From Pyruvatibacter mobilis (lineage in GTDB: Bacteria; Pseudomonadota; Alphaproteobacteria; CGMCC-115125): a DNA stretch of 64,000 bases. The stretch is from positions 1,529,501 to 1,593,500 of the forward strand of contig NZ_CP051630.1 in assembly GCF_012848855.1 (NCBI RefSeq), written 5' to 3'. The position numbers and the translations under genes are program-made. Under the pieces are notes generated by a model. The model did no database searches. It was not told where the DNA came from and was given only the letters and a program-made list of their open reading frames with translations. Positions 12,349-41,125 of the stretch are shown here, one piece after another. Position 1 is the first letter of the stretch, and the number at the start of each line of letters is the position of its first letter.

Positions 12349-13755
12349 CTAGAGCAGCATGGTGAGCGGATCCTCGATCAGGCGCTTGAAGGCCTGAAGG
12401 AGTTTAGCCCCCAGCGCGCCGTCAATGGCGCGGTGATCGCAGGAGAGCGTGACGGTCATCATGGTGGCGGCACTCAGCGTGCCATTCTTCACCACGGGCC
12501 GTTCCTCGCCGGCGCCCACCGCCATGATGGCGGCCTGCGGCGGATTGATGACGGCGGTGAAGTTTTTGATGCCGAACATGCCGAGATTGGAGACCGAGAA
12601 GGAGCCGCCCTCATAGTCAGCGGGCTTCAGCTTGCGGTCCTTGGCACGCTGGGCGAGCTCTTTCACCTCGGCTGAAATCTGTGCCAGCCCCTTGGTTTCG
12701 GCTGCCTTGACGATGGGGGTGATGAGCCCGCCATCCAGCGCCACGGCGACGCCGATATCAGCGTGCTTGTGCTTCAGCAGCGCGTCGCCCGCATAGGACA
12801 CGTTGCAGTCCGGCACCTTCATGAGGGCCAGGGCGGAGGCGCGGATGATGAAGTCGTTGACCGACACCTTGATGCCGTCGTCCTCGCCGCGAGCATTCAG
12901 TTCCTTCCGGACACGGAGCAGCTCGTCCAACTCGCAATCGATGGTGAGATAGTAGTGCGGCAGTTCCTGCTTGGACTGGGTGAGGCGCTTGGCGATGGAT
13001 TTGCGCATGCCGTCGAGCGGCACTTCTTTGTAGGTGCCGTCTTCGTAATAAAGGCGCGGGTCCGGCAGGGAGCCTGCGGGGGCGGCGGCTGGTGCCTTGC
13101 CCTGCTGCTTGGCATCCGATTTTTCGGCGGCGGCTTTCTTCGGCGCGGCCTTGCCGGGCTGGGCTGCTTCCACATCCGCCTTGATGATGCGGCCATGGGG
13201 GCCGGAGCCATCGAGGCTTTTCAGGTCGACGCCCTTGTCGGCGGCGATGCGGCGGGCGAGCGGGCTTGCAAAGATGCGCTCGCCGTCCTTTTCAGGTGCC
13301 GGCGGTGTGGCGGTCTCAACCCCCCTCACCTTCCCATCGCTCTCGCGACGGGCCCCTTCCTCTCCCCGCTGGGGAGAGGCGCGTTTTTCTGCACCGTCGT
13401 CGTCCGCCTCTTCTTCATCGCTTGTATCTTTTTCGGACGGGGCGGGCTTTGGTGCCGGTGCAGCGTCGCCTGCGTCGCCTGCGTCGAAATCGTCGAGGTC
13501 GCCCTCGTCTTCGCCGTCTTCGAGGATGACGGCGATGGGCTTGTTGATGGCGACGCCTTCAGTGCCTTCATCGACAAGGATCCTGCCGAGCGTGCCTTCG
13601 TCCACGGCTTCCACTTCCATGGTCGCCTTGTCGGTCTCGATCTCGGCGAGGACGTCACCGGAGGCCACCTTGTCGCCTTCCTTCACCAGCCATTTGGCGA
13701 GCGTGCCCTCTTCCATGGTGGGGGACAGGGCCGGCATGAGCACGGGGATGGGCAT
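12349..13755 (-). CDS. pdhC: Pyruvate dehydrogenase E2, dihydrolipoamide acetyltransferase
   Basis: 468 aa. One N-terminal lipoyl domain (residues 1-78, lipoyl-lysine in ETDKATME), an acidic Ala/Asp/Glu linker, a peripheral-subunit-binding domain ([16 protein letters not shown]) and the acetyltransferase domain ending [20 protein letters not shown] with the catalytic His and Asp. E2 is the core to which E1 and E3 bind. Residues 126-145 of the linker are encoded by a copy of the interspersed palindromic element found between genes elsewhere in this window (13320-13380), making that stretch arginine-rich and unlike the flanking acidic linker. The start is joined to the preceding GFA-family gene by TGATG. 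Confidence 0.96.
13320..13380. repeat. Class C palindromic element inside the pdhC linker
   Basis: The + strand has CCCCTCACC, TCCCA, a GC-rich hairpin, GGGCCCCT and CTCTCCCCGCTGGGGAGAGG. It parallels the intergenic copy at 19925-19988 in the same order and spacing. It is read in frame through pdhC with no stop codon. Confidence 0.8.
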
Positions 13756-19074: not shown

Positions 19075-19623
19075 ATGCCGCTGTTGTGTATCGGAACCAC
19101 GGGCATGCTGGCGGGTGCGGCCCGGCAGCTGGCCGGCTCCGGCGGGGCCGATATCGCGGTGCTGGCGCGGCGGGCCTCGGCGTTCCGGTTCGGGGAAGCG
19201 GCGCTGGACGCGCGGCTCAGCGCCTATGACACGGACTGGAGCGATGCTGCGGGCTTCGTCTCGGCGCTGGAGCAGGCCGGTGCGGCGCAGGGGCCGTTCC
19301 GGGCAGCGCTTGTGTGGATGCATGGGCGCGACGAAGCGCTGCGGGCGCAGATTGTTCATCACATGGCCGAAGGCGGGCTTTTGATCGAGGTGCTGGGGTC
19401 AGCCGCATCGCGGCCCGGCGCCTTCGGCGAGGAAAGGGTGCGGGTGATGCAGGGGCTGCCGCATATCCGCTACCGGCAGGTGCTGCTGGGCTTTGTGCAC
19501 CATGACGGCGTGTCGCGCTGGCTGACCCATGAGGAGATTTGCGCGGGCGTGCTGCAGGCTGCTGCGGGCGATGATGTGGTGACGGTCGCCGGGCAGGTGG
19601 AGCCGTGGAAGCTGCGGCCCTGA
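19075..19623 (+). CDS. Hypothetical Rossmann-like protein (short, dehydrogenase-related)
   Basis: 182 aa preceded by a good AGGAG site and 9 bp after the hydrolase gene, so likely co-transcribed with it. The N-terminus PLLCIGTTGMLAGAARQLA resembles a nucleotide-binding Gly motif of atypical short-chain dehydrogenases, and ALVWMHGRDEALR and LLIEVLGSAA could be following strands. No YxxxK catalytic motif is visible, so enzymatic activity is doubtful. Its 3' end faces the repeat cluster before eno. Confidence 0.65.
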   Translation: MPLLCIGTTGMLAGAARQLAGSGGADIAVLARRASAFRFGEAALDARLSAYDTDWSDAAGFVSALEQAGAAQGPFRAALVWMHGRDEALRAQIVHHMAEGGLLIEVLGSAASRPGAFGEERVRVMQGLPHIRYRQVLLGFVHHDGVSRWLTHEEICAGVLQAAAGDDVVTVAGQVEPWKLRP

Positions 19624-19666
19624 GGGGCTCGGGGGTTGATGCGTCCGTCAACCCAGAAACAACCGC

Positions 19667-19803
19667 ATCCCTCCGGCCTGACCGGAGGGTCCACTCGCCT
19701 TGGCTGTTGGGGATGGCGGGTGCGGCTGGCGCATCTGTGCAAGCACACCTGCTGCGGCAAGCGGGGCCGAGAGTAGGCCCTCCGGTCAAGCCGGAGGGCT
19801 ACG
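19667..19803. repeat. Composite class A element, full copy 1
   Basis: A 21-bp palindrome CCCTCCGG-N5-CCGGAGGG (19669-19689), then CCACTCGC-TTGGCTGTTG, a variable centre, TGCTGCGGCAAGC, GAGAGTAGG and the second palindrome (19778-19798) ending in CTACGG. The same order occurs at 40296-40429 and 41147-41283. Confidence 0.85.
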
Positions 19804-19829
19804 GGATTTTAGTGCGCCTGCCGGTGTTA

Positions 19830-19878
19830 CCTCCCCCCTCGAGGGAGAGGTCGGTGCGTCAGCACCGGGTGAGGGGGT
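19830..19878. repeat. Class C palindromic element
   Basis: ACCTCCCCCCTCGAGGGAGAGG followed by TCGGTGCGTCAGCACCG and GGTGAGGGGG: two adjacent hairpins. It is the inverse orientation of the element at 41073-41125. Confidence 0.8.
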
Positions 19879-19924
19879 GAGACCCTCAACCCTCATAAAG
19901 TCTGAGATCAGAGACCACTGCTGC

Positions 19925-19988
19925 CGCCCCCTCACCCTCCCACGGGCTTGCGCCCGCGGGCCCCTCCCTCTCCCGCTAGGGGAGAGGG
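19925..19988. repeat. Class C palindromic element (longer form)
   Basis: CCCCCTCACCCTCCCA, hairpin CGGGC-TTGC-GCCCG, GGGCCCCT, then CTCTCCCGCTAGGGGAGAG. It is the closest relative of the sequence embedded in pdhC at 13320-13380. Confidence 0.8.
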
Positions 19989-20022
19989 AATTATTGGCCA
20001 GGCCTTCCCCCCACCCCGCTTT

Positions 20023-20119
20023 CCCTCCGGCTTGACCGGAGGGTCTATGGGTGGGGCAGTGTGGCACAGGCTTTGTGCCGGATGGATGGTCGGATGGGCC
20101 CTCCGGTCGAGCCGGAGGG
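20023..20119. repeat. Pair of class A palindromes with a divergent centre
   Basis: CCCTCCGG-N5-CCGGAGGG at 20023-20043 and again at 20099-20119, 55 bp apart. The interior lacks the conserved ACTCGC and TGCGGCAAG blocks and instead has its own hairpin (GGCACAGGCTTTGTGCC). Confidence 0.75.
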
Positions 20120-20154
20120 AAAGCGGTGTTTAGGGCTGTCTGACCGCCCCTTGC

Positions 20155-21459
<1,305 letters not shown>

Positions 21460-41028: not shown

Positions 41029-41072
41029 CAAGCGGGGTGGGGGGAAATGCAGGCCGCCCATTCCCGCTCCAT

Positions 41073-41125
41073 CCCCCTCACCCGGTGCTGACGCACCGAC
41101 CTCTCCCCCAAGGGGGAGAGGTGAC
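41073..41125. repeat. Class C palindromic element
   Basis: CCCCCTCACCCGGTGCTGACG, then CACCGACCTCTCCCCCAAGG and GGGAGAGGTGAC: two hairpins in the opposite orientation to 19830-19878. Confidence 0.8.

Follow-up and report, generated by a model that had tools for sequence, protein, structure and literature searches.

The pdhC gene of Pyruvatibacter mobilis, which encodes the E2 component of pyruvate dehydrogenase (PDH), carries within its reading frame a short palindromic segment resembling sequences that lie between genes, and this raises the question of whether the segment is a genuine copy of a dispersed repeat and, if so, how it came to be translated as part of a conserved enzyme. The genome is a single 3.33-Mb contig and the window referred to here is the 64,000-nt stretch of it that was analysed (positions 1529501–1593500); features in the window are collected in Table 1.

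Pfam analysis of PdhC showed intact lipoyl (residues 5–77), E3-binding (161–196) and catalytic (241–468) domains, and the reading frame is open across the element. The 62-nt copy, CCCCCCTCACCTTCCCATCGCTCTCGCGACGGGCCCCTTCCTCTCCCCGCTGGGGAGAGGCG, codes for residues 125–146 on the minus strand; the 60 bp described in an earlier note on this DNA correspond to residues 126–145. It lies between the lipoyl and E3-binding domains, in the linker where that note had placed the peptide, and brings several arginines into this acidic linker. On sequence comparison the genome seems to have no E2p gene other than pdhC, because the only other full-length E2-like match is just 34% identical to PdhC. The frame in which the element is read is the least permissive of its six, being free of stops in 12 of the 36 copies in this genome; the short-stem (62-nt) variant, which includes the pdhC copy, lacks the TGA that the 64-nt form has in this frame. 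A gene with a GFA domain (PF04828; 13755–14246, minus strand) is present between pdhB and pdhC only in this species; at this point the genomes G003 and G001 have a few bases.

When region 13300–13400 of the window was compared with the genome by blastn, it matched position 2570365 of the contig with 85% identity over 62 nt (E=5e-14) and two further places at E=2e-6; the class C element at about 19925–19989, used as a query, returned about 35 copies. A covariance model of the repeat family was built from 28 copies, the pdhC copy among them, and a search of the genome with this model found 36 copies scoring 57–95 bits, followed by a gap. The pdhC copy scored 64.2 bits (E=5.9e-13), a value that is partly by construction as this copy is in the model; the blastn values are independent of it. 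The repeat unit is ~64 nt long with two hairpins, and its approximately 36 copies lie mostly between genes. Of all copies in the family the one in pdhC has diverged furthest (identity 0.78); its identity in the alignment runs block by block, also in segments outside the hairpins such as CCCCTCACC and GGGCCCCT. Given the blastn value of E=5e-14, chance is excluded as the source of the likeness, including the chance similarity of GC-rich linkers that the earlier note had named as one way in which its reading could fail; judged by its sequence, the pdhC segment is a diverged but genuine copy of the two-hairpin repeat. The claim that the element at 13320–13380 repeats the class C element at 19925–19988 was correct in both sequence and coordinates.

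Both hairpins form in the DNA fold of the pdhC copy (z=-3.5 on the plus strand and -3.7 on the minus strand), with 0 of 200 shuffled sequences folding as well. For helix 1, the family alignment contains two-sided changes at five of the eight pairs, amounting to 26 cells by comparison with 6.8 expected from shuffles, and this covariation was destroyed when the partner was slid by 1–3 columns. The pdhC copy has its own helix 1 stem, TCGC/GCGA, a variant of the family stem with a two-sided, compensated change from C-G to U-A. Two-sided changes were also looked for in helix 2 across the aligned copies and none was found, so that this helix has no covariation support. No Rfam family matched at its gathering threshold between 12300 and 21500 of the window. 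Five C units (G000:C1 588120, 619751, 638384, 2373045 and 2565960) harbour a nested hairpin (about CTTTGTCCGCTTCCGGCGGACAAGCCGCCGAAAG) in the loop of helix 2.

Kinship between the class C element and the pdhC copy therefore stands as the earlier note had it, but the class C element is not a whole unit: it is half of a larger composite. A shorter, inverted B unit was present close upstream of 27 of the 36 C units (25 called by the model and two seen in the flanks), and the B–spacer–C composite, ~162 nt long, folds as a single cloverleaf with an outer stem joining both ends (-91 to -104 kcal/mol). The copy in pdhC is solo and belongs, as a C half-unit, to the short-stem subtype. Divergence is greater in solo than in paired copies (mean identities of 0.860 and 0.893, respectively; p=0.02). 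C units also occur in pairs ~275–350 bp apart (G000:C1 576716/577025, 716088/716439, 899316/899628 and 942445/942720), which suggests local duplication. A second dispersed palindrome family, CCCTCCGGCTTGACCGGAGGG, is often found beside the B/C composites.

Table 1. Features of the pdhC locus and of related repeats (window coordinates).
Feature	Position	Strand	Evidence
pdhC, E2 of pyruvate dehydrogenase, 468 aa	12349..13755	-	ORF; Pfam PF00364, PF02817, PF00198
Solo C unit of the palindromic repeat, C-rich strand on +	13320..13381	+	blastn E=5e-14; cmsearch 64.2 bits
Helix 1 of pdhC copy, CCC-A-TCGC / GCGA-C-GGG	13333..13352	+	alignment, pair count, fold
Helix 2 of pdhC copy, CCTCTCCCC-GCT-GGGGAGAGG	13359..13379	+	fold, stem search
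Species-specific palindrome array holding the composite	about 19617..20163	.	blastn of syntenic regions, empty-site comparison
Intact composite: B unit (19828-19878, minus), ~47-nt spacer, C unit (about 19926-19989, plus)	19828..19989	+	cmsearch, flanks, cloverleaf fold -91 kcal/mol
Solo B unit	41072..41123	+	cmsearch 32.3 bits
Second palindrome family, CCCTCCGGCTTGACCGGAGGG	19663, 19776, 20022, 20097, 40170, 40401, 40962, 41006, 41255, 47372		

Covariance model searches of three sister species of the genus gave no full-length match, with a single partial hit (E=0.6) in one of them, and the element peptide was not found in PdhC of the three other species of the genus examined, despite these proteins being 82–84% identical. 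Beyond the genus the family is patchy across the Alphaproteobacteria, being present in 78 of 289 genomes. The interval between the ORF at 19075–19623 and eno is about 548 bp and consists largely of mixed palindromic repeats, by comparison with 26 bp in G003 and 23 bp in G001; the repeat family has been gained at this intergenic site in this species. The dispersed copies, the species-specificity within the genus and the gain at this nearby site all support the earlier description of a mobile or copied palindromic element, and the finding that its residues are absent from the sister species' PdhC argues in the same direction.

At pdhC itself, the linker segment is only about 21 nt longer than that of the nearest relative, G003, the two sequences being alignable as far as GGTGCAGAA and again from CCACACCGCC onwards, with the ~21-nt difference lying between. 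A clean insertion of 60–63 nt with a target duplication is not visible by comparison with G003, and since the net gain is only 21 nt there was no simple addition of 60–63 nt to a G003-like sequence; the insertion would have come with loss of, or later turnover in, adjoining linker sequence. As to the earlier note's question whether these 20 codons are an indel among close relatives, the peptide is absent from the sister proteins, but no clean indel is apparent. With regard to a mobilising enzyme, the genome (G000) has no match to the RAYT (Y1) transposase family PF01797, controls having been detected, and across 46 genomes this family showed no association with the repeat (5 of 23 repeat-rich versus 7 of 23 repeat-lacking genomes); RAYT was rejected as the mobiliser on both of these grounds.

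The earlier note had also proposed a search of the whole genome for other in-gene copies. Other C or B units do lie under ORFs, but these ORFs have the appearance of antisense frames or of genes extended upstream, and the idea of many further in-gene copies was rejected. The exception is a DUF559 gene (G000:C1:642946-643302; L189:1747-2103), whose C-terminal residues are coded by a C unit; beyond this no other was recognised, and the pdhC copy is the only one of the 36 recognised as internal to a gene.

We consider it very likely that a non-autonomous mobile repeat of the REP/REPIN kind, able to form hairpins, gave rise to the 62-bp pdhC segment: a copy would have entered the frame of the PdhC linker after the split from the sister species and been tolerated there, with the ~162-nt composite as the replicating unit and the pdhC copy as a solo half-unit. 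Family membership, the covarying stem, solo status, species-specificity, the intact frame, the linker position and the nearby intergenic gain are all established by the analyses above. The replicating unit would be a composite of B', spacer and C, that is two inverted half-units of two hairpins each, a single strand of which would fold as a cloverleaf. Such a selfish, REPIN-like element would disperse mostly into intergenic DNA and selection would remove copies in folded domains, while copies in the long arm tethering the lipoyl domain could survive if the frame stayed open. The pdhC copy may be tolerated for three reasons: the short-stem variant has no stop in the frame used, the frame was preserved by the net change in length, and the long linker in which the copy lies does no more than tether the lipoyl domain. 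It presumably arrived by transposition or by copying, for example through template switching, and is probably neutral, the extra residues doing little harm.

The alternatives bear on different parts of this reading. Linker sequence could have been replaced without any transposase, either by template switching during replication or by ectopic gene conversion with an intergenic copy as donor; this competes with the transposition step only, is compatible with the rest, and strikes us as an unlikely route that nevertheless deserves consideration. It would accommodate a net difference of only 21 nt, which speaks for replacement instead of simple gain and is similar in Mesorhizobium, as well as the lack of a RAYT in the genome and the solo state of a copy that is not a full composite. 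However, the family disperses as a defined composite, which fits transposition, and no donor with the stem TCGC/GCGA is present among the aligned copies. A separate proposal concerns retention of the copy and not its origin, namely that selection has kept either the hairpin of the pdhC mRNA or the Arg-rich linker peptide, through an effect on RNA stability, on translational pausing or on the behaviour of the swinging arm. Both hairpins are intact in the coding copy, the change in helix 1 is compensated, and several arginines have been added to an acidic linker, all of which could be read in this way; we nonetheless hold it to be improbable as the sister species do without the element, the composition and length of the linker are free to vary across 226 PdhC sequences, and the coding copy is the most diverged of its family.

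Finally, there may have been no mobile event, the linker having drifted to a GC-rich sequence that converged on the repeat. Linkers are of low complexity and GC-rich, and long GC stems also arise in ordinary Ala/Pro linkers, but convergence is refuted by the alignment statistics (E=5e-14) together with block-by-block identity that includes the non-hairpin segments CCCCTCACC and GGGCCCCT, and we give it virtually no credence.

The model was also run over 229 loci with pdhC (about 0.93 Mb). Matches within genes were located in the PdhC linker of L086 (29.6 bits), L136 (28.3), L135 (21.7), L254 (20.2), L252 (20.0) and L126 (Mesorhizobium sp. AR07; 19.8), and in the PdhB linker of L126 (24.4 bits) and L114 (16.4). 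E1-beta, like E2, has a lipoyl domain. The REP-like palindromes are in frame in these six PdhC linkers and likewise in the PdhB (E1-beta) linkers (L126:815-930, Mesorhizobium AR07; L114:888-938, a Hyphomicrobiales MAG). By position, the remaining stronger matches lie outside pdhC in adjoining gaps or further downstream, and none was recognised in other genes over about 0.9 Mb in which the neighbouring genes are only partly annotated. The weaker scores are unconvincing singly; it is their repeated fall in the same linker that convinces.

Stem length alone was rejected as a detector of elements within linkers: stems of at least 9 were observed seven times versus 4.5 expected, and GC-rich Ala/Pro linkers give long stems by chance. 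Calls therefore rest on likeness to the family and on copies elsewhere in the same genome. The best proven case is L126, whose genome gives 134 matches to the linker DNA, including one at 93% identity over 135 nt; its E2 domains are intact and the linker of another Mesorhizobium locus, L101, is without the element. The genomes of L086, L135, L136 and L114 and genome G204 contain 3–20 matches to the model. The linker palindromes of L252 (G321) have no second copy of the linker DNA in their own genome and this case is unproven. Among the distinct linkers compared, which amount to about 59 kb, candidate palindromes occur in 2 of 155 from PdhB and in 7 of 226 from PdhC, the latter count including P. 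mobilis; they come from several lineages and belong to different element subfamilies, and linkers with an element are somewhat longer (p=0.007).

On this basis we tentatively suggest that several REP-like mobile palindromes may have landed repeatedly in the linkers of the alphaproteobacterial PDH lipoyl arms (E2 and E1-beta), so that linkers would differ in length and sequence partly because they include translated mobile DNA. That unrelated Alphaproteobacteria should repeatedly have similar elements in one and the same flexible arm of this complex was unexpected, and no report connecting palindromic repeats with PDH E2 linkers, or describing their recurrence there, was found in the literature searched. 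The pdhC copy clearly illustrates that selfish palindromic DNA can lie in frame in an intact core metabolic enzyme outside Rickettsia too; the PDH linker offers a natural test bed for mobile DNA becoming protein sequence, and strings such as SPLPSGER or PSPQRGEG in protein databases can be translated repeats.

Rickettsia palindromic elements, as summarised in PMC2229807 and PMC10969869 (Ogata et al., 2000; 2002), are ~100–150 bp long and are found in many genes of one genome. The likeness to them drawn by the earlier note was borne out at the level of behaviour, by analogy, in that a palindromic repeat lies in the intact frame of a conserved protein and also between genes; in contrast to those elements, the present repeat has a single copy out of 36 recognised as internal to a gene. 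Bacterial MITEs with open frames (ERIC, Correia/NEMIS and RU-3; reviewed in PMC2229807) are likewise small, non-autonomous elements fused in frame to genes, but here no terminal TA or target duplication was noticed, and the structure is of the REP kind and not one with IS-like long terminal inverted repeats.

REP and REPIN sequences are short, mostly extragenic palindromes, occurring as inverted pairs with a spacer that fold as one hairpin or a cloverleaf and show compensatory changes (Bertels and Rainey, 2011, PMC3116915; Di Nocera et al., 2013, PMC3733652). REP singlets are more diverged than pairs (PMC3116915), and intragenic copies are known, with flexible linkers suggested as tolerated sites (PMC3733652). 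The inverted B and C pairs with their spacer (27 of 36), the cloverleaf fold, the covariation in helix 1 and the greater divergence of solo units all match this description. No GTAG or CGTC tag, as in the REP superfamilies of those names, was seen by eye at the hairpin foot in the aligned units. By comparison with REPINs, no RAYT (Y1) was found in this genome or correlated with this repeat, and each half-unit has two hairpins, the halves differing in sequence. In-frame copies of REP and Rickettsia elements are already established (PMC3733652, PMC2229807, PMC10969869); the pdhC copy is not a new system and adds one more example to these.
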